Of a DNA stretch of 10,000 bases, positions 1-10,000 are shown piece by piece. The position numbers and the translations under genes were made by a program. The DNA is from Kiritimatiellota bacterium (GTDB lineage Bacteria; Verrucomicrobiota; Kiritimatiellia; JAAZAB01): contig VSJD01000174.1 in assembly GCA_008636095.1 (NCBI GenBank), positions 1 to 10,000 of the forward strand, read 5' to 3'. Numbering within the stretch: position 1 is the first letter of the stretch; each line of letters begins with the position of its first letter. Under the pieces are notes generated by a model. The model saw only the letters and a program-made list of their open reading frames with translations. It ran no database searches and was not told where the DNA came from.

Positions 1-306
1 CAACCAGGGCACACTCGAACCAGTTACGATCGAGCGATAAATCACCAGCCGTTTTTTGGCGGGAATCAGATAACTCATCAGGATCTGGCCCGCCGCGAAG
101 ATGGGTGGAAAAGACAAGATAAAACCAATCAGCGCCTTCGGGGCGTTCATAGCGCCAAGGTAGGCGGGTATGAATGTGGAAAACATGGCAAACGGCAGGC
201 CAAGTCCCCACAGGAATTCCCAGCTCACCATGGCCGTCAGGTTCCGCCGATAATCCCGCTCGACCAGGTGCTCGTATTCGGCCGTGACTGTCGGGTTAAT
301 GGGCAT
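1..306 (-). CDS. MFS-type membrane transporter, N-terminal part (cut by window edge)
   Basis: The first 102 codons are open from ATG (306-304) to the window edge. The ATG overlaps the TAA of waaA (TAATG, 308-304), which suggests translational coupling; GGAG lies 8 nt before the ATG. A charged cytosolic start of about 25 residues is followed by two hydrophobic segments, roughly residues 28-50 and 55-80, with a short NAPKALIG-type turn between them and then a basic loop containing KKR. This resembles the first two helices of a major facilitator superfamily protein, but two helices are not enough to name a substrate. The neighbour waaA does not prove an envelope role. It could be another multi-pass membrane protein. 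Confidence is high that it is coding and moderate for the family. Confidence 0.72.
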   Translation of the reverse strand, partial: MPINPTVTAEYEHLVERDYRRNLTAMVSWEFLWGLGLPFAMFSTFIPAYLGAMNAPKALIGFILSFPPIFAAGQILMSYLIPAKKRLVIYRSIVTGSSVPWL

Positions 307-1661
307 TACGAAGGCTCCGCACGGGCAACAAGCAGGGTCAATAAACATTCAGCGCTGGCGCGGATGGCGCCGGCCTTAGCGTGCACCACCTGCTCGGCCC
401 GCCGGCCATAAGCTTGGGCCACCTGGTTATCGAGCCACAGTTCTGTCACTACCCGCTCCAGAGCGGAGGCATCCGGAACCTGGATCAGAGCATTCGCGGC
501 GCGAAAGTCTGCGACGACGGTGGTGAAGTTTTCCGTGTACGGGCCGATTACGATCGGCTTGGCGAAGACGGCTGCTTCGATTACGTTCTGACCCCCGTGG
601 GACGTCAAGCTTTTGCCCACAAAGATAACCGTTGCCAGGGCAAAAAAAAGTTTCAATTCCCCGGTTGTATCCACCAGCAATACATCCGACTTCGCCAAGG
701 CTACGCCGGACAAGTCGGCACGGCTACAGGAAGTAGTTGCCGTATGCGCGGCTTTCAGCTCGCTCCAGGCCATTCCCGACAGGCCGGCTTTACGGATGGC
801 AGCCATGACCGCCTGGCGACGTTCGGCGTGGCGGGGAACCAGGACTAACCGGGTCTTCGAGTCCTGGGCGCGCAATTTTTTATACAGATCCAAAAGGATG
901 GTTTCTTCGCCCGGCCAGGTGGATCCGCCCACCAACCAGCGCGTGTCGGCATCAAAACCGGCCCGGAGCAGAAGAGCGCGAACAGGGGCCGAATCCATGT
1001 GCGAGGGTTCGGTCACATCATACTTGGCCGAGCCCATAACCCGGATTTTTTCCGGTTCCGCGCCCAGCTCCCTCAGCCGCTGGGCATCCTCCGGCCCCTG
1101 CATGCAAAAGAGATCAAAGCAGGCCAGTGCTTTTTTCACCAGGAGCCGCACCTTACGGTAGTTACGGCACGAATGCGCCGAAAGGCGGCCATTCAACAGC
1201 ATGATCGGCATACGACGGCGCCGGGCCAGTCGCAGGAGATTAGGCCAGAGTTCCCCCTCCACCAGTATGAGCGCCAAGGGACGCAGACGGTTCAGTACCC
1301 GCGTCATGATCCAGGGAAGATCTACGGGAAAATACAGCAGGACATCGTCCGCAGACAGTTGCTGTGCGGCAATGGCGTGCCCGGTGGACGTGGTGGTCGT
1401 CAAGACAAAAGCCAGGGTGCTCCGACGCTCCCGCAGGGCGCGCATGAACCGCAGGGCGACAAGGACCTCGCCCACGCTGACAGCATGAATCCAGACCCGT
1501 GGCCGGTTTCGCAGGCGTTCCTGCACGGAGGACTCGTAGCGGCCGAACCGCTGGAGAAATCCCTTGCGATAGCCGCCGCGCTTCCACATCCGCAACAGGA
1601 ATCGCGGCAGGAGCAGTAAAAATACGATTGGAAAAAAACAGTTGTAAAATAACCAGATCAT
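306..1661 (-). CDS. waaA: 3-deoxy-D-manno-octulosonic acid (Kdo) transferase WaaA/KdtA
   Basis: The 451-aa protein transfers Kdo from CMP-Kdo to the lipid A precursor on the inner face of the cytoplasmic membrane, the first step of LPS core assembly. Residues 4-24 form one hydrophobic N-terminal anchor. Then come the Kdo-transferase N-domain with HAVSVGEV (59-66; Glu65 is the expected catalytic base), ILVEGELWPNLL (132-143), GGSTWPGEE (245-253), DVLLVDTTGEL (326-336) and GGQNVIEAAVFAKPIVIGPY (356-375), the GT-B nucleotide-binding end. It is longer than typical members (about 425 aa), partly because residues 313-326 are repeat-derived (see 685-714). The start gives the usual membrane-anchor N-terminus, but no Shine-Dalgarno precedes it. 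The stop overlaps the start of the transporter gene. The family call is firm. Confidence 0.96.
   Translation of the reverse strand: MIWLFYNCFFPIVFLLLLPRFLLRMWKRGGYRKGFLQRFGRYESSVQERLRNRPRVWIHAVSVGEVLVALRFMRALRERRSTLAFVLTTTTSTGHAIAAQQLSADDVLLYFPVDLPWIMTRVLNRLRPLALILVEGELWPNLLRLARRRRMPIMLLNGRLSAHSCRNYRKVRLLVKKALACFDLFCMQGPEDAQRLRELGAEPEKIRVMGSAKYDVTEPSHMDSAPVRALLLRAGFDADTRWLVGGSTWPGEETILLDLYKKLRAQDSKTRLVLVPRHAERRQAVMAAIRKAGLSGMAWSELKAAHTATTSCSRADLSGVALAKSDVLLVDTTGELKLFFALATVIFVGKSLTSHGGQNVIEAAVFAKPIVIGPYTENFTTVVADFRAANALIQVPDASALERVVTELWLDNQVAQAYGRRAEQVVHAKAGAIRASAECLLTLLVARAEPS
685..714. repeat. Palindromic repeat element inserted in frame in waaA
   Basis: The plus strand has an interrupted dyad: TCCG (685-688) pairs with CGGA, and GCC pairs with GGC around an AA loop. 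A related copy lies in the spacer at 5303-5336; over 33-34 nt about 27 positions match, with one gap. Read on the minus strand it encodes LSGVALAKSD, inside residues 313-326 of WaaA, just before the conserved DVLLVDTTGEL block. The intergenic copy read in the same phase gives PSGVALSEAG. I infer that a mobile palindromic element landed in a permissive loop and stayed in frame, as Rickettsia palindromic elements do. Confidence 0.6.
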
Positions 1662-1671
1662 AATAATAAGA

Positions 1672-1818
1672 AATGAAGAATGTCCGCCAAAGCGGATCCG
1701 CTTCAGGCGGAAAAATCAGGCAAAGTACTAAACAATGCCTGCCATGCATCACTCAATCAATCTTTTTCTTTGCCTTTTGCTTTCTGAATTCTGCATTCTA
1801 CATTCTGCATTCCGCATT
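1672..1818. repeat. xerC-waaA spacer: inverted 7-nt-period arrays around a palindrome
   Basis: Positions 1784-1818 are five consecutive 7-nt units of the form CTGCATT (CTGAATT, CTGCATT, CTACATT, CTGCATT, CCGCATT), beginning 5 nt after the xerC stop. The opposite end, 1672-1683, carries AATGAAG plus AATGT, which pairs with 1800-1811 at 11 of 12 positions. So the array has an inverted partner and the 162-bp spacer can fold back. Between them lies the palindromic element at 1683-1711. The left arm ends 10 nt before the waaA ATG. The units and pairing are seen directly; function is unknown. Confidence 0.65.
1683..1711. repeat. Palindrome upstream of waaA
   Basis: TCCGCC (1683-1688) is mirrored by GGCGGA (1706-1711), and the centre AAGCGGATCCGCTT (1690-1703) is a perfect 14-bp palindrome with a BamHI-like core. 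It starts 21 nt upstream of the waaA ATG on the minus strand. No T-run follows on either strand, so it is not a classical intrinsic terminator. It may be a second family of dispersed palindromic element or a protein-binding site. Confidence 0.6.
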
Positions 1819-1823
1819 TGTCT

Positions 1824-2834
1824 TCAGGCCCGCGGGTGGGCTTCGTTATAAACCTGCTTAAGCCGTTCCACCGTGACGTGGGTGTAAATCTGGGTCGTGG
1901 AAAGACTGGCGTGACCGAGCAATTCCTGGACACTGCGCAAATCGGCGCCGGCATCCAGCAGGTGCGTGGCGAACGAATGCCGCAAGGCATGCGGCGACAT
2001 GTGGGGATCCAGATTGGCCCTGACCAGGTAGCGTTTCATGAGCCGCTCGATCGAACGCGTGGTCAACCGGCCACCCGTATGGCCTACGAAAACGAACGCG
2101 GGGCTGGTGCGCTTAAATACCCCGGCCAGCGTGGAGCGCTTTTCCAGCGCGGTCTGTATGGCTTTCACGGCCGGTTTGCCTAATAGGCACAGCCGCTCTT
2201 TCTTGCCTTTACCCCGGACTTTAACCACGCTCGCGAGCAGATCAATGTCGCTTTCATTCATACCGGCCAGCTCGCTGACCCGCATGCCGGTGCTGTAAAG
2301 AATTTCCAAGATCGCCGTGTCGCGGATGACGGCATAATCCAGCCATGCGCGCTTGGCGGCATCCGGTTCCCCGGCCGGAGCCGACGATTCGGCCGGAGCC
2401 GACGACTCGGCCAGCGCTTCTGCGGCCACCTGGCGCGGCGCCTCCAGCAGGCGGGTTACTTCCTGGAGCGTCAACACCTTTGGCAGTGGTTTTCCGCGTT
2501 TGGGTGAGATGATGCCGGCAAACGGGTTCTGCGTCACGTGTTCTTCCCGGTTCAGGAACTTGAAGAACGACCGCAGGCTGGAGAGTTTCCGGTTGACCGT
2601 CGTGGCCACGGCCTGCTGTTTCTGGCAGTGCACGATGAACTTGCGGGCGGAAAATTTATCCACGTCCGGCCAGGCATAGGGCGGCTTGGCTTCCGTGCCC
2701 CACTGGGTCCGGACAAACTGCTCCAGGTCAACCAGGTAACTGCTGATTGTATGCCCCGAGGCGTTGCGCTCGCCCTCCAGGTAACGCATGAAATGACCGA
2801 TACAAGGGTCGTCCATGATAATCTTTGCACTCAT
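1824..2834 (-). CDS. xerC: Tyrosine recombinase of the XerC/XerD family
   Basis: This 336-aa recombinase of the type that resolves chromosome dimers at dif with FtsK has an N-terminal SAM-like core-binding domain (about 8-95) and a catalytic domain (about 120-330). The full catalytic set is visible: Arg185 (STGMRVSEL), Lys209 (VRGKGKKER), His282 and Arg285 (PHALRHSF), His308 (LLGHAS) and nucleophile Tyr317 (TTQIYTH). The end EAHPRA is typical of Xer proteins. XerC is slightly favoured over XerD but not proven. It exceeds the usual ~300 aa because of an Ala/Ser/Pro-rich insertion near 135-160 holding a tandem repeat. GGGAG sits 7 nt before the ATG, which supports this start. dprA lies upstream, as in Firmicute smf-topA-codV regions. 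Confidence 0.93.
   Translation of the reverse strand: MSAKIIMDDPCIGHFMRYLEGERNASGHTISSYLVDLEQFVRTQWGTEAKPPYAWPDVDKFSARKFIVHCQKQQAVATTVNRKLSSLRSFFKFLNREEHVTQNPFAGIISPKRGKPLPKVLTLQEVTRLLEAPRQVAAEALAESSAPAESSAPAGEPDAAKRAWLDYAVIRDTAILEILYSTGMRVSELAGMNESDIDLLASVVKVRGKGKKERLCLLGKPAVKAIQTALEKRSTLAGVFKRTSPAFVFVGHTGGRLTTRSIERLMKRYLVRANLDPHMSPHALRHSFATHLLDAGADLRSVQELLGHASLSTTQIYTHVTVERLKQVYNEAHPRA
2376..2411 (-). repeat. 18-bp tandem duplication inside xerC
   Basis: Two adjacent 18-bp copies (2376-2393 and 2394-2411) differ at one base and encode AESSAP twice, followed by a partial third AGEP. They lie in the linker before the first catalytic Arg block, so length changes should be tolerated. The reading frame is kept. 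Confidence 0.8.
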
Positions 2835-2927
2835 GGTCCTACTCCCAACGTGCGCCTTGCCCGCAACCTAAACAACCAAAACCTCACCACAGAGTTACAA
2901 AGGCACGGAGAGCAAACAAGAGGAGGG

Positions 2928-2974
2928 TTTGTCAAATTTGGGATGAGCGTTCCGCTCCCCAAAAATTTGACAAA
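2928..2974. repeat. Long hairpin in dprA-xerC spacer
   Basis: Twelve-bp perfect outer arms TTTGTCAAATTT (2928-2939) and AAATTTGACAAA (2963-2974) enclose GGG/CCC and a GAGCG-TTC-CGCTC tip (2945-2957), with a two-base bulge on each side. About 20 bp can pair. No T-run follows on either strand. It could be a transcript-end stabiliser, a protein site or a repeat relic. Confidence 0.7.
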
Positions 2975-3051
2975 CGCAGTTGTATTTTGGAGCAAGATCG
3001 GAGATTTGATTAGTTCAATCATCTTCTTTCCTTCTCCAATGAAAGTCATTT

Positions 3052-3092
3052 CTTGAAATCCGGTTTTGCGTCCAACAAAACCGGATTTCAAG
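3052..3092. repeat. Perfect 17-bp inverted repeat with 7-nt loop
   Basis: Arms 3052-3068 and 3076-3092 are exact reverse complements, beginning CTTGAAATCCGG and ending CCGGATTTCAAG, around a 7-nt loop (CGTCCAA on plus). It lies about 100 nt downstream of the dprA stop. The lack of a following T-run argues against a classical intrinsic terminator, although a stem this stable could still end or protect the dprA transcript. Confidence 0.8.
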
Positions 3093-3189
3093 CAAACTCT
3101 ACTCCGTGCTTCCGTGTCTCCGTGGTGAACTTCATCTTGCTTTGGCAGCCTCTCGTTTTTTATAGCGATTTCGAGTGGATAAGGCGCTA

Positions 3190-4281
3190 TTATCTTCGTC
3201 TCAGCGCCACGCGCCTTCCCGGCAACATGCGCACCACGCGCTTCATTTCGAGACCCAGGACCAGCACGCTGAGGGCGGAGGCCGGCACGCCGGTTGTCCG
3301 GGTCAGGGTATCCATATCCAGTTCCTCCTCGGCCAGGGCCCGCACGATCTTTTCCTCGTCCGGGTTAAGCGGTGGAAGGTTTTCCAAGGCGCCGTGGCAA
3401 GCCGGCGGAATCAGGAATTCAAATTCCTCGAGGATATCATCCACGCTCTCGACCAGGCGTGCGCCTTGTTTTATCAACTGATGACTGCCCTTGGAGGCGG
3501 GCGAGTCAATCCTACCGGGAACGGCAAACACGCATCGGCCCTGGTCGAGCGCCTGGCTCGCCGTGATGAGCGCGCCGCTGGTGGGGCCAGCTTCCACCAC
3601 GAGGACGCCCATGCAAAGGCCGCTGACAATGCGGTTGCGCATGGGGAAGGTGGTTTTATCGGGCTGACGGCCCAGCGGAAATTCGCTCAGCACCGCGCCC
3701 TGGCGGGCAATGCCCAAGGCCAGCTCGGCGTTTTCCTCGGGATACAAGCAATCCAGCGCGCCGCCGAGCACGGCTAAGGTCCGACCACCGCCTTGCAGGG
3801 CGCCGCGGTGCGCGGCGGTATCAATTCCGCGCGCCAGCCCGCTTACCACGACAAAGCCGGTCTTGGCCAGATGGAAGGCAAATTTTTCGGCCGTCTCACG
3901 CCCGTACAGGGTGGTGTGCCGGGATCCCACCACGGCGATGGCGCGTTTGTCTTCCGGCGCCAGCGTTCCCCAGACATAAAGCGCCAGGGGCGGGTCATGG
4001 ATCGTCAACAACGGCTTGGGATAGGCGGCATCCACCGGCGTGATGATTTCATATCCCCGCTTGCGGGCGCGCGCCAGCTCCTCATCCGGTCGGAGGTGTC
4101 CGCGCTGGCTCGCTATCTTTTCGACCAGGGCCGGGCCGATACCTTCAGCCTTGAGCAAATCGCCCTTGTCGGCCTGGAAGATGGCTTGGGGCGAACCGAG
4201 TACGGTTACCAGGGCCCGGACGCTGACCGGCCCGATGTCCTCCATCATATTGAGTGCAATATAGGCTGTGCGGGAATCCAT
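3190..4281 (-). CDS. dprA: DNA-processing protein DprA (Smf)
   Basis: The 363-aa protein matches DprA, which binds incoming single-stranded DNA during natural transformation and loads RecA onto it. It has an N-terminal helix-hairpin-helix-like part (GIGPALVEKI, 47-56) and a long Rossmann-type domain with AVVGSRHTTLYGR (116-128), VVSGLARGIDTAAHRGAL (145-162), TFPMRNRIVSGL (211-222) and SGALITASQALDQGR (235-249). The C-terminal winged-helix (about 305-360), ending in a basic RRVALRRR tail, is present, so the protein looks complete. No Shine-Dalgarno precedes the ATG; an array arm ends 11 nt upstream. Many non-competent bacteria also keep dprA, so competence is not proven. Confidence 0.96.
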   Translation of the reverse strand: MDSRTAYIALNMMEDIGPVSVRALVTVLGSPQAIFQADKGDLLKAEGIGPALVEKIASQRGHLRPDEELARARKRGYEIITPVDAAYPKPLLTIHDPPLALYVWGTLAPEDKRAIAVVGSRHTTLYGRETAEKFAFHLAKTGFVVVSGLARGIDTAAHRGALQGGGRTLAVLGGALDCLYPEENAELALGIARQGAVLSEFPLGRQPDKTTFPMRNRIVSGLCMGVLVVEAGPTSGALITASQALDQGRCVFAVPGRIDSPASKGSHQLIKQGARLVESVDDILEEFEFLIPPACHGALENLPPLNPDEEKIVRALAEEELDMDTLTRTTGVPASALSVLVLGLEMKRVVRMLPGRRVALRRR

Positions 4282-4292
4282 TACTAAGAATT

Positions 4293-4416
4293 GCGGATTG
4301 TTGATTTCGGATTGATGATTGCAGAACCGTCAAATATTACGATGAAACAATCGAGGCTAACCGTGTATCTCCCTTTGTTCCGTTTGAAAATCAGAAATCA
4401 GCAATCATAGATCATA
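4293..4416. repeat. Inverted 7-nt-period arrays filling the spacer upstream of dprA
   Basis: Left array 4293-4320 has four 7-nt units ending in GATT (GCGGATT, GTTGATT, TCGGATT, GATGATT). Right array 4389-4416 has the inverted form (AATCAGA, AATCAGC, AATCATA, GATCATA). The core 4296-4313 pairs with 4389-4406 at 16 of 18 positions. Together they nearly fill the 142-bp spacer: the right array ends 7 nt from the stop of the upstream gene and the left array 11 nt from the dprA ATG. The 68-nt middle shows nothing I can name. Confidence 0.7.
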
Positions 4417-4423
4417 AATTCAT

Positions 4424-5047
4424 TTAGCTGGCCGGTGCGGCGGCGTTCCGGCGCGCGCGGCGTTTGCGGAGGGCGAACAACTCCAGTTGCGGCGCCTTCA
4501 ACAGATCGTAGTTTTTCAGAATGCGCAGGATCTGCAGGAGGTCCGACTTCTCGTAGTTTTTATTGGTGTCCACGCTCTCCAGCAGTTCCAGCAACATCGT
4601 GCGGAACGAAAGCACCCCATCAATGCCTTTCTGCTTCAGCAGGCCCAGTGTGTCGTTCCGCAGTTTTTCCGAGACCGGGAGCTGGGGCAGGCAGAGAATT
4701 TTGGCGAAGTCCGGCTTACCCAGCCGCCGCGCCGCCGAACGTACCGCGTCCGCGCTGGCGAAGCGCACGATTTCGGGGATGTGCTCCAGCATGGCGGGAT
4801 AGACGCGTTCCGTGTGCCAGGAGTACACACCGACGACCGCCCGCGGAACGGTTTTCAGGTCCTCCGTGGTCCAGAGCATGGTATCCGGCAGGCGCTGTGC
4901 GGTGATCAGCGGGTGATCCACAATCAGGTCAATTTCCTCGTCCATCCGCTTGGGACGGCCGGTGACGAAATACTTGCAGGGCTGGATGACCATGTAACCC
5001 TGCTGTTCAAAATATTCCCTGACAATCCATTCGCTGACCGAAGCCAT
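4424..5047 (-). CDS. Conserved-looking hypothetical protein, possible PD-(D/E)xK-like nuclease fold
   Basis: I do not recognise this 207-aa protein. It starts with a strong AGGAGG ribosome-binding site (complement of 5057-5062) 9 nt before the ATG, so it is a real gene. It has no signal peptide or membrane segment. The N-terminal third reads as an alpha-beta layout of restriction-like folds: helix with REYFEQQGY (10-18), strand with EEIDLIVDHP (37-46), then WTTEDLKTV (59-67). Glu11, Asp40 and the DLK at 63-65 could form an E...D...(D/E)xK site, but this is weak pattern matching. The C-terminal half is helical, with ELLESVD and DLLQILRILKNYDLL, ending in a very basic tail (ALRKRRARRNA). The tail and fold hint at nucleic acid binding. 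It lies just upstream of dprA. Confidence 0.85.
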   Translation of the reverse strand: MASVSEWIVREYFEQQGYMVIQPCKYFVTGRPKRMDEEIDLIVDHPLITAQRLPDTMLWTTEDLKTVPRAVVGVYSWHTERVYPAMLEHIPEIVRFASADAVRSAARRLGKPDFAKILCLPQLPVSEKLRNDTLGLLKQKGIDGVLSFRTMLLELLESVDTNKNYEKSDLLQILRILKNYDLLKAPQLELFALRKRRARRNAAAPAS

Positions 5048-5108
5048 GGCGCCACTCCTCCTATGATGATTGCCTACTTCTTCGTCTTGTTTTCTGCTTC
5101 AAGTGTGC

Positions 5109-5290
5109 TCGAATTCGGTTCGAAAAATGCGTCGGCGACCCCGCCAAGCGCGGGATAAATCTTGAGCCGCCTGCGGGTTTCCCGCGCTTGCGCATACACG
5201 GGTATTGCGCTGCGCGCGGCGCACCCACATTCGCCCCAAGCTTGCCTTGCTGTTTCGAACCCCTCGCCAAGCTCGGGGAACCGAATTCGA
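5109..5290. repeat. Large imperfect inverted repeat with inner stem
   Basis: Outer arms TCGAATTCGGTT (5109-5120) and AACCGAATTCGA (5279-5290) are perfect over 12 bp, and each is flanked outward by a GTGTG/CACAC remnant. Within the 158-nt interior an 11-bp perfect stem (5145-5155 with 5180-5190) is capped by a 24-nt loop, followed by a GC-rich block and an AAGCTTG motif. The size and nested stems would suit a miniature transposable element or a structured RNA. I see neither a target-site duplication nor a known RNA family. Confidence 0.5.
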
Positions 5291-5302
5291 CACACGCCGT
5301 CA

Positions 5303-5336
5303 TCCGGCTTCGCTCAGAGCTACGCCGGACGGGTCG
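5303..5336. repeat. Palindromic repeat element, intergenic copy
   Basis: TCCGGC (5303-5308) pairs with GCCGGA (5324-5329), with an inner GCT...AGC. It is related to the copy inside waaA at 685-714 (about 27 of 34 positions with one gap). Read on the minus strand in one frame it gives PSGVALSEAG and then a stop, against LSGVALAKSD in WaaA. Confidence 0.6.
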
Positions 5337-5501
5337 TGGCGCGCGAAACGCACGCCCGAGATCTGATTTCTCTGATCGGCGTACCGGATGCCTTCGAGGA
5401 GAGCCGCACGAGCTCCCCGCAGAAGGCGGACGAGTACGCTGTTTAAGTCTTTGCCAAAACAAAGTTCGGAAAATCTTCAAATACCCAATTGTTCTCCTTT
5501 G

Positions 5502-5578
5502 TTTCACACAAAGCCACGAAGCATTATTAGACCATCCCGCTTTCGTTTTCCTGCATACCTCTGTGCCTTTGTGTGAAA
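5502..5578. repeat. Inverted 8-nt-period arrays just downstream of nadK
   Basis: Arm 5502-5517 (TTTCACACAAAGCCAC) pairs with 5563-5578 at 15 of 16 positions, across 45 nt. Both show an 8-nt period: ACACAAAG, CCACGAAG on one side and ACACAAAG, GCACAGAG on the other. The word is close to the one in the dprA-xerC spacer. The arm starts 4 nt after the nadK stop, so the nadK transcript end would fold here. Confidence 0.65.
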
Positions 5579-5582
5579 AGAC

Positions 5583-6446
5583 TCAGGCCAGGGTCGAGCC
5601 GCGCCAGTGCAGTTTCTGGCGCAAAACCGTGAAGTAGCTGTAATCCGGCAGGTGCACAAAGTGGGCCGAGGTTTTACTGCGCCGGATTTCCACCTGGTCG
5701 CCCGGCTTGAGCTTTTCGCCTACCTGGCCGTCCACGGCAAGCAACAGGTCGCCCACGCTTTTGGCCACCCGGACAGTAATCCGCTTTTCATCCGGAATTA
5801 CCAGCGGGCGCGAACTGAGCGTGTGTGGACAGATCAGGCTGACAACAAACGCGGCGGCGCCGGGATGCAGGATCGGTCCGCCAGCCGCCAGCGAATGCCC
5901 CGTACTGCCAGTGGGCGTGGAGACGATCAGTCCATCGCACATGAAGGATGACACAGCTTCGCTGTCAAGGCGCATGTCCAACGTCACGATCCGGGGGCAC
6001 GCCCCGCGGTCAATGACGACGTCATTCAGTGCGCGGTAGCGGCTGATGATCCGGCCGGCGCGTGTAACCGCACATTCCGCCAACGCGCGGCCTTCCACGG
6101 TATACCGTCCCGTTGCCACGCATTCCAGTGCCCGCCCGGCATCCTGCTGGGCAACGCTTGTTAGGAACCCCAGGCTTCCCAGGTTAACGCCGAGCACCGG
6201 AATGGGCCGACCCTGAAGCAGGCGCATGGCCCTTAGCATGGTGCCGTCCCCGCCGAACACCATCAGGAGTGAAATGGCCCGGATCAGTTTTTCCGGCACC
6301 AGGCGGCGCACGCCCGGTAGAAAACGGGCGGCTTCCGGCTCGGCCGCCAGCCGCAGGCCGAGCCGCCTGGCGGTTTCCGCAAACCGGCCCAGCACATCCG
6401 GCGCCGAGGGTTTGGAGCCATTGGCAAATATTCCGATGGGTTTCAT
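5583..6446 (-). CDS. nadK: NAD kinase (ATP-NAD kinase)
   Basis: The 287-aa protein phosphorylates NAD to NADP in the cytosol. It has the diagnostic GGDG (65-68, FGGDGTMLRA), then GVNLGSLGFLTSV (86-98), LNDVVIDRG (140-148, where most members have NE), CDGLIVSTPTGSTGHSLAAG (170-189) followed by GPILHP, and a late DG (239-240). Length is normal (E. coli about 292). The start gives MKPIGIFANG, a normal first strand, but no Shine-Dalgarno is visible; an array arm ends 12 nt upstream. The adjacent tlyA upstream fits the tlyA-nadK order known in Mycobacterium and Firmicutes. The NE-to-ND change is conservative and is unlikely to remove activity. Confidence 0.96.
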   Translation of the reverse strand: MKPIGIFANGSKPSAPDVLGRFAETARRLGLRLAAEPEAARFLPGVRRLVPEKLIRAISLLMVFGGDGTMLRAMRLLQGRPIPVLGVNLGSLGFLTSVAQQDAGRALECVATGRYTVEGRALAECAVTRAGRIISRYRALNDVVIDRGACPRIVTLDMRLDSEAVSSFMCDGLIVSTPTGSTGHSLAAGGPILHPGAAAFVVSLICPHTLSSRPLVIPDEKRITVRVAKSVGDLLLAVDGQVGEKLKPGDQVEIRRSKTSAHFVHLPDYSYFTVLRQKLHWRGSTLA

Positions 6447-6458
6447 ATTCTATATGAG

Positions 6459-6641
6459 GTGTTCGGTGTTCGGCAACCGGTGGCCTTCAATCCAAGTGTG
6501 GGAATATAGGCGTTTAGGAGTCTGGGCGCATGATGCAAATTCTTTACTCCCATAAATCCAAACTCCCATACTTCCATAAGCCAACACCCTTTAACAGATG
6601 CTGTTGTAATCTTCCACCCCCTGAACACCGAACACTGAACA
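6459..6641. repeat. nadK-tlyA spacer built of two nested inverted tandem arrays
   Basis: Outer pair: two GTGTTCG units (6459-6472) against CTGAACA, CCGAACA, CTGAACA (6621-6641); 6459-6473 pairs with 6628-6642 at 14 of 15. Inner pair: four 8-nt units at 6496-6527 (GTGTGGGA, ATATAGGC, GTTTAGGA, GTCTGGGC) against four at 6546-6577 (ACTCCCAT, AAATCCAA, ACTCCCAT, ACTTCCAT); 6499-6528 pairs with 6547-6576 at about 20 of 30. The arrays span nearly the whole 208-bp spacer, from 13 nt after the tlyA stop to 12 nt before the nadK ATG. Confidence 0.72.
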
Positions 6642-6654
6642 CTTTTCCGAGTAG

Positions 6655-7398
6655 CTATCCTGGTTTTTCCCAACAGGCTAAAAATTCAATATTGCCGGCG
6701 GGCCCCCGGATGGGCGATTCACAAACACCCCGCCACACTAATCCCAGTTCCACCTGGCCAAAGGCGCGTATTTTCGACACGACCCGTTCATGCACGGCGG
6801 CATCGCGCACAACGCCCCCGCGGCAAACCTCCTTGCGCCCGGCTTCAAATTGAGGCTTGATGAGCGTGATGATCCCCGCGCCACGGCACAGAGTAGTATT
6901 AACCGCCGGCAGGACTTTTGTCAATGAGATGAAGGAAACATCCACGGCGGCAAAAGCCGGCGCGGTGTCCAGATCGCCCGGCTTAAGGTAGCGGGCATTC
7001 ACCTGCTCCATCATAACCACCCGCGGATCCTGCCGGAGCTTCCAGTGCAGTTGTCCTTTACCGACGTCCACGGCGAACACTTTGGCGGCCCCATGCTGAA
7101 GCAGGCAATCGGTAAATCCGCCCGTGGAAGCGCCCACATCCAGGCAGATTTTATCCCGGACATCCAGGGCAAAGACTTCGAAGGCCCGTTCCAGTTTTTC
7201 GCCGCCGCGTCCGACGAACCGATCAGGCGCCGCAACGGCAAGAACAACTTCCGCCGGAAATTCCTGGCCCGGTTTAAGCGCCGGCTGTCCATCCGCGCGC
7301 ACCGTACCGGCCAGGATCAGGCGCTGGGCCTTGGCTCGGCTTTCCGCCAGATTCCGCATTACCAGTAATTGGTCTAACCGTTGGCGTTGGGTCTTCAT
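6655..7398 (-). CDS. tlyA: TlyA-family rRNA (cytidine-2'-O)-methyltransferase
   Basis: This 247-aa protein has an N-terminal S4 RNA-binding domain (about 6-60; QRLDQLLVMRNLAESRAKAQ), the FVGRGGEKL linker (61-69) and an FtsJ-like SAM methyltransferase domain: DVGASTGGFTDCLL (87-100), FAVDVGKGQL (108-117), DVSFISLTKVLPAV (153-166) and LIKPQFEAGR (179-188). In Mycobacterium TlyA 2'-O-methylates C1409 of 16S and C1920 of 23S rRNA and affects capreomycin sensitivity; the old name hemolysin A is misleading. Length is normal. No clear Shine-Dalgarno is seen before the ATG, and the 79-bp upstream gap shows no repeat array and no promoter I would defend. Confidence 0.95.
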   Translation of the reverse strand: MKTQRQRLDQLLVMRNLAESRAKAQRLILAGTVRADGQPALKPGQEFPAEVVLAVAAPDRFVGRGGEKLERAFEVFALDVRDKICLDVGASTGGFTDCLLQHGAAKVFAVDVGKGQLHWKLRQDPRVVMMEQVNARYLKPGDLDTAPAFAAVDVSFISLTKVLPAVNTTLCRGAGIITLIKPQFEAGRKEVCRGGVVRDAAVHERVVSKIRAFGQVELGLVWRGVCESPIRGPAGNIEFLACWEKPG

Positions 7399-7477
7399 GG
7401 GCGCAATATGTTTAACCTAAAATGATTTACGAACCACTACAAATCAGATTGCACGTCCGCTCCAGATAAAATGGCTT

Positions 7478-8632
7478 TTACTTTTTTCTGGAATGCGGGA
7501 TGGGCGGGTAATAGATAAAGAGGTGTGAAATGGCATCGGTTTCACCGAGGAAAATTTCGCCAAAGGGTCCGACGCTCATGGCGCCGATGGAGTGTGCAAA
7601 CCAATACTCCGGTATCGTGGTGCCGATGATCCCTAAGTCGCAAAACCCCTGTCCGGCGGGGTCATAGACGAACAGGTGTGCCATGCCTTTTGGTTCATCC
7701 ACGATCCCGTAGATCAGGCCATCGTGGCCTTCGACCAGAGAGCGGATATACGACTGCCGGTTGGGCTTGCCAAGGTTCGCCAGGTTTCCGGAGACCGGAT
7801 CATAGCGGAAAAGGTATCCATCGACTGTGGTGCCGCCGTAAACTGTATTAGCGCTGCTCACCAGTAAGCTTGCCACACCGGCCACGTAGCGTTTGCCGCT
7901 CTGGCAGGGAGCGTGGGCGTCCAGTGCCTGTAACTTTGCCTGGAAGGGTTCGTATTCCCAGAGCCGGCCTTCGGCGTAGGTGCCCAACAACCGACCGTCA
8001 TGGAGCAGGGCCAGGACGGGGCAGGCTCCTTCAATCTTGGCCAGCATTTGCGGCTGCGCCTTCTTGTTGTCAACTGCCAGGGAGAAAAGAAAGTTGCCGG
8101 GCGCTGTCAAGCCGTAAACCATCCGGTTGCTGCGGTTGAAGACCAGGGTGCTAACGCCTTCGCCCTTCTGTGGAGCCGGCAGAAATTCGACCGGCGAGAT
8201 TTCTCCGAGGAACTGTTCAAGTCCCTGGGCGGCTTCCAACCGGATATTGTGCCGGAACAGGCCGCCGCCATCCTTGCCGTGCCAGCCGCCAAGGATTTCC
8301 TCATTGCCGAGATCAACCAGGGCGCCGCCGGCAACAGGTCCCTGGCCAAGTTCAGCGACATGCGACACGCCGAAGGCCGAATGGAAATAGAACAGGTGGC
8401 CGCGGTTGCCGCCGGTGATGCCGTAAGTCAGGTTGCACTCCAGCGCCAACAGGGCGAAGATGGCCGATTCCTCCCGCAGGATTTTCGGTTTCACCAGAGC
8501 CTCTTTCAAGGCGAACCCGTAAATTGTCCCGCGCCGGACAAATGGGAAGGCCTTGTCGCGGTACAGACGAGCCATGTCGCTCTCGGCAACTACTGTCAGG
8601 GTTGGCCAAGCCGGGGTTTCAGCTGGTTTCAT
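7478..8632 (-). CDS. Cytosolic seven-unit beta-propeller-like protein (second of pair)
   Basis: The 384-aa protein from ATG at 8632 has AGGAAGGAAG upstream (complement of 8641-8650; the last GGAAG is 8 nt away). A GTG at 8662, overlapping the stop of the upstream gene, would add 10 residues but lacks a good ribosome site. Seven units of strand-[YG]-turn-LFxYD-strand-DLG type occur near residues 68-96, 112-141, 171-200, 215-237, 263-288, 307-335 and 359-377; the clearest are TVYGGTTVDGYLFRYDP and LIYGIVDEPKGMAHLFVYDP. This suggests a seven-bladed propeller. No signal peptide or membrane segment is seen, so it should be cytosolic. It resembles the neighbour at 8659-9792 in unit pattern. I know no function; sugar-lyase or scaffold roles are only guesses. 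Confidence 0.85.
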   Translation of the reverse strand: MKPAETPAWPTLTVVAESDMARLYRDKAFPFVRRGTIYGFALKEALVKPKILREESAIFALLALECNLTYGITGGNRGHLFYFHSAFGVSHVAELGQGPVAGGALVDLGNEEILGGWHGKDGGGLFRHNIRLEAAQGLEQFLGEISPVEFLPAPQKGEGVSTLVFNRSNRMVYGLTAPGNFLFSLAVDNKKAQPQMLAKIEGACPVLALLHDGRLLGTYAEGRLWEYEPFQAKLQALDAHAPCQSGKRYVAGVASLLVSSANTVYGGTTVDGYLFRYDPVSGNLANLGKPNRQSYIRSLVEGHDGLIYGIVDEPKGMAHLFVYDPAGQGFCDLGIIGTTIPEYWFAHSIGAMSVGPFGEIFLGETDAISHLFIYYPPIPHSRKK

Positions 8633-8658
8633 TGATAAAGCTTCCTTCCTCTCAGAAA

Positions 8659-9792
8659 TCACTCGGGGCGATAGATCAGGATGTTAACCGGGATCCGTTG
8701 GACACAGGCGAAATAGAGCGTGCCGGCCGGGTCGCAGACCACGCGCCAGGGGAAATTCCCCTGCCCGTTCAACTCCATCAGGCCAATTACCTCTTTCTTT
8801 CCGGTGGCAACATGGTAACGGGCCAGGATGTTGCCGTCGGACTGGTTGCGCTTCTGGTTAACCGTGTAATATATATGACCACTGTGGTCCGCCGTCATGC
8901 AACGCAGGAAGACAGCGGGGATGTCATCCAAGCCTGGACCGAGATCCTCGATCGCCGGCTCATCCCGGCGCGGATCGAAACGGAAGAGATGGTCGTTGGA
9001 ATAGGTCAGGCCGTAGATGAACCCGTCCGGGCCCTGGCACATATCGGTGATCCAGGAACAGGCCCCGGACTGATTCCAAGGTTCCACATAGGGGCGTGTG
9101 TCGAAAAAACGGAGCCGATCCTGCTTGACGTCGTACTTAATCAACCGTGAGGTAACGTCCGATGTGTAAAGGTTGCCGGTGCTGTCGAAAATCATGGCAA
9201 TGGGATACATCGAAGAGATCCGGCCGTAGTCCTTGAAATCCCGGCCGGCGAGGTCGGTGCGGAAAAAATGCGCTTTCGGATAGGTCGCACCATAGAGGCA
9301 TTTCCGTTTCTCGTCCAGCATCAGGTAGGGGATGCCTTCATGGGGCGTGATCACACCGAAGTCCACCGCTTCGCGGCTCTTGGTATCGTAGCGGAAGATA
9401 TGGGCGCCGGGAAAGCTCATCACGGGATCACCCCACATGGTAAACGGGCTCCAGATCGGGACGCCGATGGGCGGAGTGGTGCAATGGGTGGCACCGTAAA
9501 CCTTGCCGTCACGGGCGTGGCAGAGGGAGAAATGGATCTTGCCCTGGGTAGCATGACCGCTATCCGGTGGTTCCCCGGTGACCCGGCCGATGTCCGCAAG
9601 GTGCTGGAGCCGCCGGGCCTTTGTGTCATACATATATAATTGGGCAACCCCGCCGCCGCGGCCTTCCAAGCAGAGGCCGATATAGACCTGGGCGTCGTGC
9701 CCCATGGTGATGGTCCAGATGGTGTCGTGCTGTGGATGTTCCGGAAAGACAACGGATTCCCATTGCCGCGGATTCAGGATTGGGATAACCAT
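8659..9792 (-). CDS. Cytosolic seven-unit beta-propeller-like protein (first of pair)
   Basis: The 377-aa protein carries seven recurring units with a [VIL]Y[GxT]...[HL][IL]FR[YF]D.....DFG pattern near residues 36-69, 98-146, 166-190, 208-231, 259-285, 307-337 and 359-375. Good examples are HIFRYDTKSREAVDFG (131-146) and DHLFRFDPRRDE (267-278). Its length and unit count suit a seven-bladed propeller. No signal peptide or transmembrane segment is present; the protein is rich in Trp, His and Cys (for example CSWITDMCQGPDG, 245-257), which may line a ligand pocket. AAGGTG lies 7 nt before the ATG. It probably heads an operon with the paralogue-like gene 26 bp downstream. It might be a sugar-acid lyase, an SMP-30-like enzyme or a binding propeller; nothing in the sequence decides. 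Confidence 0.88.
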   Translation of the reverse strand: MVIPILNPRQWESVVFPEHPQHDTIWTITMGHDAQVYIGLCLEGRGGGVAQLYMYDTKARRLQHLADIGRVTGEPPDSGHATQGKIHFSLCHARDGKVYGATHCTTPPIGVPIWSPFTMWGDPVMSFPGAHIFRYDTKSREAVDFGVITPHEGIPYLMLDEKRKCLYGATYPKAHFFRTDLAGRDFKDYGRISSMYPIAMIFDSTGNLYTSDVTSRLIKYDVKQDRLRFFDTRPYVEPWNQSGACSWITDMCQGPDGFIYGLTYSNDHLFRFDPRRDEPAIEDLGPGLDDIPAVFLRCMTADHSGHIYYTVNQKRNQSDGNILARYHVATGKKEVIGLMELNGQGNFPWRVVCDPAGTLYFACVQRIPVNILIYRPE

Positions 9793-9836
9793 AAACTGAC
9801 ACCTTGATTTTGAAGGAATTTTGGTCGTCCATTAAA

Positions 9837-9887
9837 GGCCAAATCCCACCGCCGCTACGGCGCGACAACGGCCGGCGGAGCCTGGCC
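9837..9887 (-). promoter_or_regulatory. Hairpin in the leader of the propeller genes
   Basis: GGCCA (9837-9841) pairs with TGGCC (9883-9887), and CCGCCG (9849-9854) with CGGCGG (9873-9878), enclosing an 18-nt loop. It would fall in the 5' untranslated leader if the promoter at 9941-9968 is used, ending about 45 nt before the ATG. It could be a regulatory leader or another palindromic repeat. Confidence 0.4.
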
Positions 9888-9940
9888 AGTTTAAAAATAA
9901 TTACACAACATGTACTTTACCGACATTATTCATGCTTGTT

Positions 9941-9968
9941 AATTTACGCTTTTGTGATCATTTGTCAA
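9941..9968 (-). promoter_or_regulatory. Possible sigma-70-type promoter for the propeller pair
   Basis: On the minus strand TTGACA (complement of 9963-9968) is a perfect -35 box, followed after 16 nt by TAAATT (complement of 9941-9946, 4 of 6 to TATAAT). It lies about 150 nt upstream of the first propeller ATG in an AT-rich stretch. A short TGTC-AA-GACA dyad (9963-9972) overlaps the -35 box and could be an operator half-site pair. Housekeeping sigma consensus is assumed for this lineage. Confidence 0.45.
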
Positions 9969-10000
9969 GACAGCCGGTGGCGTACGGCCACAGCTGAACT

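Follow-up and report, generated by a model that had tools for sequence, protein, structure and literature searches.

The question raised by this locus is what the paired tandem arrays in its spacers are and how they arose. The window studied here is the whole stretch of 10,000 nucleotides (nt) from a Kiritimatiellota bacterium (GenBank assembly GCA_008636095.1, contig VSJD01000174.1, positions 1 to 10,000), part of a genome that we call G000. Its arrays sit in five long spacers between minus-strand genes: S1 (1662-1823), S2 (2835-3189), S3 (4282-4423), S4 (5048-5582) and S5 (6447-6654). A sequence-only reading of the window had claimed that all five hold inverted pairs of degenerate, short-period tandem arrays, that the pairs share layout and period while the repeated words differ, and that such arrays might be built locally, by slippage or template switching, or be selected for folded spacer RNA. 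Our analysis argues that the arrays are probably the two ends of small mobile elements carrying either a PF05635 gene (23S rRNA intervening-sequence protein, IVP) or a PF13366 gene (PDDEXK_3, GxxExxY), and that the copies in the window have been stripped of the gene.

Inverted arrays in the five spacers

Each spacer was compared with 200 dinucleotide shuffles, for its inverted score and for its best tandem segment of 6-9 nt period. The observed inverted score was reached by 3, 0, 4, 6 and 3 shuffles for S1 to S5, so the inverted pairs claimed for all five spacers stand. The best tandem segment was reached by 0, 1, 0, 43 and 0 shuffles; in S4 alone the array is no better than chance, because barely two units remain there. 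The window letters bear out the shared layout and period with differing sequence. No Rfam family matched the window, and one standard transposable element was rejected as the source of all words, in agreement with the earlier reading.

Arrays enclose genes of two unrelated families

The two families bracketed by arrays, PF05635 (IVP genes) and PF13366 (PDDEXK genes), are unrelated. G000 has 12 hits to the former and four to the latter, and 12 of these 16 lie between significant arms. The full set holds 133 loci from 24 genomes: all 16 of these hits, and the better-scoring, mostly full-length ones among a far larger number of matches listed elsewhere, with fragments, two-domain open reading frames (ORFs) and low scorers mostly excluded. 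Three IVP loci (L099, L244, L255) had flanks too short to test, leaving 130. Arms above all 100 shuffles flank 61 of 88 IVP and 28 of 42 PDDEXK genes (genes were compared with 60 or 100 shuffles, controls with 30). When the upstream flank of one element was paired with the downstream flank of another, 15 of 300 combinations exceeded 30 shuffles, and random places had arms in 6 of 150 cases. The median array-to-array length is 498 nt for IVP (66 elements) and 471 nt for PDDEXK (24 elements).

Judged by dN/dS values of 0.03-0.18 in 13 ORF pairs, one of them from an array-less clade, the element ORFs are under purifying selection; a 14th pair was saturated. Among 30 aligned GxxExxY proteins the D-ExK residues D67, E77 and K79 are invariant, the pattern D-x(9-16)-[EQ]xK is present in 36 of the 42 PDDEXK ORFs, and the predicted fold is a weak fit to the restriction-endonuclease-like fold. 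This family is large (7,994 of 7,999 scored candidates pass E 1e-10). One member (TIGR04256, PF13366) is the ORF inside an element in S5 of a sister genome, G003; proteins 79-86% identical to it are labelled Deltaproteobacteria, Nitrospirae, Phycisphaerae and Anaerolineae, a range of labels that fits horizontal spread.

In some IVP elements the ORF runs into the right array and stops there, so that the array is translated as a protein tail (L080, ORF 420-857; L083, ORF 1354-1818, minus strand). At another locus, L268 (G003:C4:52500-57500), a PDDEXK gene lies about 1.2 kb from an IVP gene.

Array period follows the gene class

Periods were sought only among 6-10 nt. All 58 scored IVP elements fall within 6-8 (period 7 in 46, 8 in 10 and 6 in 2; three were too weak), and all 24 scored PDDEXK elements within 8-10 (9 in 15, 10 in 5 and 8 in 4; four were too weak). 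Split into periods of at most 8 and at least 9, the classes differ with a Fisher value of 1.7e-15. IVP arrays have a median length of 31 nt (4.4 units), PDDEXK arrays one of 24 nt (2.6 units). An 8-nt word alone gives no class, because period 8 occurs in both; the PDDEXK parent of S2 and S4 was established by sequence match rather than by period.

Outside the taxonomic class of the window, arms flank 8 of 10 IVP genes, all with period 7 (6/7 in metagenome-assembled genomes (MAGs) labelled Desulfobacteraceae, 2/2 Nitrospirae, 0/1 Betaproteobacteria), in a set that used 12 of 15 hits, two of these with short flanks. For PDDEXK genes of a Desulfobacteraceae-labelled MAG and its relatives the count is 11 of 19 (period 9 in six, 8 in four, 10 in one); these are 19 among the 37 matches listed, the others being three good hits for which there was no locus and 15 that were fragments or scored low. 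For G029 and G030 the labels come from the MAG records, which are possibly contaminated.

Array words follow the proteins

On the protein trees the array words cluster by clade, even across genera and families. Among 64 IVP elements, all 16 between-genome pairs with at least 75% protein identity share their word (the 16 are not independent, some being one insertion seen in sister species), only 2 of 1398 pairs below 30% identity reach a word score of 17, and a Mantel test of words against proteins gave 0 of 999 permutations as high. The word GTCAGAG, for instance, is common to 72%-identical IVPs of G000 and a Desulfobacteraceae-labelled MAG, and CACAAAGC goes with the GxxExxY protein of G003. 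In 23 element pairs, hand-picked in part because the word was shared, the arrays exceed shuffles in 18 pairs, compared with 1 of 11 measurable cases for the non-coding stretch inside and 3 pairs for the 40 nt outside. One orthologous array pair, compared by eye, has kept its word while single units were altered, a hint that the sequence is recognised and not that base pairs covary.

Gene-less copies across the genome

A blind scan covered 24 contigs of G000 (240,432 nt) picked without regard to arrays. Contigs fetched for hits were left out, as was C280, which had been taken blindly and was later found to have an IVP gene. Tandem segments of period 4-12 numbered 89, against a mean of 21.4 in five shuffles, and those of period 7 alone numbered 36 against 2.6. 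An inverted partner within 900 nt was present for 19 against 0.4, which confirms genome-wide what had been read from the window. A stricter run with one shuffle gave 41 segments against 1, and 6 against 0 paired. Of the 19 paired arrays, 18 match an array found in a set of 90 gene-bearing elements, with scores above those of 20 shuffles.

The same 90 elements were compared with nine window arms, seven of which match above shuffles; for the right arm of S4 and an inner arm of S5 the best match merely ties with shuffles. Matches above shuffles were obtained for S1 with the two AATGCAG IVP elements tested, for S5 with the three GTGTTCG ones, and for S3 with two GATT-type IVP elements, though S3 failed against two others. 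S5 is nested, with GTGTTCG outside and an 8-nt CTCCCAT-type word inside. S2 and S4 match PDDEXK elements: S2 matches one end of the C237 element of G000 over about 116 nt (86% over 112 nt in another alignment), and S4 is identical to the intact G003 element at 81 of 90 aligned bases, with the ORF missing (alignment score 85; none of 100 shuffles scored above 51); the array of the intact element is fuller, CACAAAGCCACGAAGGCACAAAG. On these matches, S2 and S4 derive from PDDEXK elements, and S1, S3 and S5 carry IVP-type words. The counterpart of S1 in sister genome G002 is likewise fuller, AATGCAGAATTAAGAATGCAGAATG.

Presence and absence in sister genomes

The aligned window genes are 87-94% identical to those of two sister MAGs, L009 in G002 and L010 in G003 (placements judged from matching coordinates). 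The spacers between them differ in what they hold. The S3 element is in the window and in G003 and is lacking in G002. S4 has the word CACAAAG in the window and an AATTCCA pair in G002 and G003; at S2 the window has CACGGAG, G002 has an AATTCCA pair and G003 has the right half of one. Words thus change between orthologous spacers while the layout stays, as the sequence-only reading had anticipated. At S5, G002 and G004 have an empty site, with the stop codon of the presumed tlyA overlapping the start of the presumed nadK. The window has a GTGTTCG element of IVP type at this site, and G003 has a PDDEXK element of about 450 nt with ends CACAAAGCCACGAAG and its ORF inside. The latter is flanked by GGTTTTTCCCAA and GGTTTTTTCCAA, present as a single copy in the empty sites, that is, by a 12-nt target duplication.

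Elsewhere, the C237 site has an entire element in G000, the same ends with the ORF deleted in G003 and no element in G004. The ORF of L080 in G000 is 94.3% identical to that of L222, from a different genus, and their flanks are unrelated. Contig C239 of G000 has two IVP elements, which G002 shares. G001, G003 and G004 lack the first. Of the second there is no copy in G003, a half-deleted one in G004 and, in G001, a mini-pair of four units plus one. Elements therefore come, go and decay.

In 50 nt of flank, direct repeats scoring at least 10 were found at 4 of 28 PDDEXK elements; swapped flanks give about 1%, and none of 200 permutations came as high. With 30 nt the figure was 1 of 28 (20 of 200 permutations). 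The G003 case is the sole PDDEXK duplication proven through empty sites.

Features of the window

The arrays and neighbouring genes of the window are collected in Table 1. The gene names are presumed from the translations. The closest records to the window DprA are labelled Verrucomicrobia (97% identity) and Kiritimatiellae (93%).

Table 1. Arrays, elements and genes of the window (TRF, Tandem Repeats Finder)
Feature	Coordinates	Strand	Description	Basis
Presumed waaA/kdtA	306-1661	minus	gene	translation
S1 left arm	1670..1682		eroded remnant, <2 units, of AATGNAG array	letters; G002 fuller at same place
S1 right arm	1778..1818		7-nt array TGCATTC/AATGCAG	TRF; matches IVP elements L229 (G002), L231 (G004), score 28 vs shuffle maximum 13
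Presumed xerC/D	1824-2834	minus	gene	translation
S2 left arm	2885..2911		8-nt CACGGAG-type array	letters; sister comparison
S2 right end	3018..3133		ORF-less derivative of PDDEXK element G000:C237; inner hairpin and CACGGAG array 3103-3124	score 81 vs shuffle maximum 19
Presumed dprA	3190-4281	minus	gene	translation
S3 left arm	4293..4322		7-nt GATT-type array, IVP-type word	TRF; element also in G003, not G002
S3 right arm	4388..4419		7-nt AAATCAG-type array	TRF; match to gene-bearing arrays
207-aa ORF	4424-5047	minus		
S4 element	5486..5585		arms 5502-5525 and 5560-5577	ORF-less derivative of CACAAAG PDDEXK element found in S5 of G003
Presumed nadK	5583-6446	minus	gene	translation
S5 entire insertion	6447..6661		T at 6661 assignable to either side	absent in G002 and G004
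S5 outer left array	6458..6473		GTGTTCG word of IVP element L080	array matching
S5 inner left arm	6495..6527		8-nt word	letters, by eye
S5 inner right arm	6547..6581		CTCCCAT-type 8-nt word	best match ties with shuffles (15 and 15)
S5 outer right array	6623..6643			array matching
Presumed tlyA	6655-7398	minus	gene	translation

We also note some repeats of other kinds: (i) Window positions 5058-5330 are an interspersed repeat with tens of matches in G000-G004; S4 is two repeats side by side, since this one is separate from the array element. (ii) A hairpin repeat TCCGCC...GGCGGA lies at 1683-1712 in S1, and S1 of G003 has it at a different place in the spacer. (iii) A repeat of about 105 nt in many copies lies directly before a start codon on C239 of G000 (L166, 7986-8091), and the same site in G002 and G004 is without it. 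(iv) A 36-nt stretch on C237 of G000 (L068, 9474-9509) is nearly identical at many places in all five same-genus genomes.

Alternative explanations

Local construction would have each spacer make its own word by slippage or template switching at hairpins. The degenerate units, the turnover of units between orthologous arms and the different words of the five window spacers would suit it, but nearly all the blind paired arrays match words of gene-bearing elements, words are common to other genera and to a Desulfobacteraceae-labelled MAG in step with the protein, and sister sites are empty. Local slippage was therefore rejected as the origin of the words. At S2 and S4 the change of word reads as exchange of elements; we hold local construction, the part of the earlier reading that fell, to be extremely improbable. 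If instead the genes were stationary regulators, with the arrays as their operators or RNA target sites, then the ORF-less arrays would be regulated sites and not mobile DNA. Word-protein linkage and conserved arrays are what a binding protein and its sites would leave, the arrays adjoin start codons, and a repeat-binding protein is suggested for TAACTGA repeats in the available text of MacGregor 2015. Against this, entire inverted pairs come and go at one spacer between sister species, S2 and S4 retain inner element sequence beyond a bare site, an ORF-deleted copy stands at C237 where a sister has the full element, and near-identical ORFs lie in unrelated flanks (L080/L222), so that stationary regulation seems unlikely. 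It is very unlikely, too, that these are ordinary elements like miniature inverted-repeat transposable elements (MITEs) or repetitive extragenic palindromes (REPs), moved by a known transposase (e.g. Y1), with IVP and PDDEXK genes as passengers. Inverted ends, internal deletions and one 12-nt duplication are in keeping with that, as are the four Y1_Tnp genes of G000; yet in G000 neither these four loci nor the reverse transcriptase (RT) locus has such arrays, or a strong inverted pair of the kind, beside it, and a single transposase leaves the ties of period to ORF class and of word to protein unexplained. The same four Y1_Tnp loci, in G000 only, were the grounds on which REPs with their associated transposases (REP/RAYT) were rejected. 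The RT hit, the only one in G000, is on C278, a contig without any IVP or PDDEXK hit, and is presumably a group II intron ORF.

Several observations weigh against mobile elements with end arrays, the reading that we prefer. About a third of the genes (27 of 88 IVP, 14 of 42 PDDEXK) are without significant arms, and in one IVP clade (L081, L106, L221, L223, L225, L228) none of six has them; perhaps these are settled host genes. The word-protein link is weaker for the 24 PDDEXK elements (Mantel, 25 of 999), and a contiguous conserved core within the unit was tested and found unsupported. No target duplication was seen at the window S5 insertion. Among IVP flank pairs 2 of 67 score at least 10, one of them the array itself, a value that 6 of 200 permutations reach; with other bounds the PDDEXK flanking repeats fall to 3 of 24, also reached by permutations. 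The absence of the first C239 element (ATGGTTG) is not clean, because its sister sites L274 (G001), L273 (G003) and L272 (G004) keep two word-like units. We know of no transposase for the IVP class, and no transposition was observed, movement resting on genome comparison. As to the two leftover units at the ATGGTTG-less sites, they could be a loss footprint or a word-like target.

Proposed mechanism

As a class the elements are well supported by comparison of sequences, through their architecture, their association with two genes, the period code, the linkage of word and protein, presence and absence in sisters, purifying selection on the ORFs and deletion derivatives. A full element of about 0.5 kb is an inverted pair of end arrays around one gene, for a PF05635 four-helix-bundle or a PF13366 PD-(D/E)XK protein, each lineage inheriting its own word along with its protein. 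For the chemistry we infer the following. The protein would bind the tandem word at both ends and bring the ends together. The nuclease (PDDEXK) class may then make a staggered cut in the target itself, which can leave a duplication of about 12 nt. The IVP class, which shows no duplications and whose protein resembles Avd, the accessory protein of diversity-generating retroelements (DGRs), would need to recruit a host enzyme. The window copies, having presumably lost their gene via internal deletion, would move, if at all, in trans, through a copy intermediate. Between co-directional genes insertions may persist; there the arms, paired in the transcript, may be trimmed much as RNase III processes 23S rRNA intervening sequences.

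We are evenly divided on a broader claim, that this is an unnamed, multi-phylum class of mobile elements whose end words are read by their own protein, with the 23S rRNA intervening sequences (IVSs) as its rRNA branch and the ORF-less copies as a large source of unexplained heptamer and octamer repeats in bacterial spacers. If true, it would account for the origin of a common and so far puzzling kind of spacer DNA, and would give two large protein families of no known role a context. The origin of 23S rRNA IVSs would become testable, and the natural series of protein-word pairs could serve for decoding how a tandem DNA or RNA word is read.

Comparison with known systems

MITEs, REP/RAYT and the short tandemly repeated repetitive (STRR) sequences of cyanobacteria are likewise repeats that are short, non-autonomous and intergenic. 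MITEs and REPs have inverted ends and partners that encode transposases; STRRs are direct heptamer arrays. The elements described here are like MITEs in having ORF-less internal-deletion derivatives with the same inverted ends (S4, S2, and C237 in G003), and differ in that their full-length partners encode PF05635 or PF13366 and no known transposase. To our knowledge none of the three, MITE, REP/RAYT or STRR, has families of words that go with IVP or GxxExxY proteins. No family that could be compared shows the defining features of these elements here. A literature search turned up no account of elements of this kind at PF05635 or GxxExxY genes, which is weak evidence of absence, as bioRxiv and most subscription journals lay outside it and in part it covered the top-ranked papers only.

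According to the available text of PMC10053308, PF05635 resembles Avd, which is essential for DGR retrohoming. The likeness to Avd is what our loci share with DGRs; neither an RT nor a template or variable repeat was seen there. Heptamer arrays in spacers are shared with the TAACTGA repeats, which are intergenic in Beggiatoaceae, cyanobacteria and Bacteroidetes and often adjoin start codons (PMC4679880). For these, MacGregor proposed horizontal spread and a repeat-binding protein, possibly itself a mobile element. The available text of that paper describes nearly all of them as direct repeats of a single word, apart from one inverted case, and mentions neither element ends nor IVP or GxxExxY genes, whereas here the words are many, the partners inverted and the periods 6-10. 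The accessible part of a related paper gives TAACTGA counts in Thiomargarita and nothing more relevant (PMC4853749).

The nearest kin is likely the 23S rRNA IVS of Coxiella burnetii, which by its features would be a branch of this class. As presented in the available text of PMC4990558, it is about 430 nt long, with a PF05635 ORF within terminal inverted repeats and tandem heptamers GACAGAT before the ORF; it is described there as a selfish element, older ideas having made it a remnant of transposition. The PF05635-family protein Xcc0516 is a homopentamer according to the same source, and structure 2rld has five chains. The three parts, PF05635 ORF, terminal inverted repeats and tandem heptamers, are common to both, a PF05635 ORF within inverted repeats being found at the 61 of 88 IVP genes counted above and the window copies being without the ORF. 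The Coxiella IVS lies in 23S rRNA, from which its RNA is cut out by RNase III; the elements described here are intergenic, with no Rfam match to place them in 23S rRNA in 40 IVP loci or in the window. Unlike the IVS, they comprise many word families, a second, nuclease-like class and many ORF-less copies.

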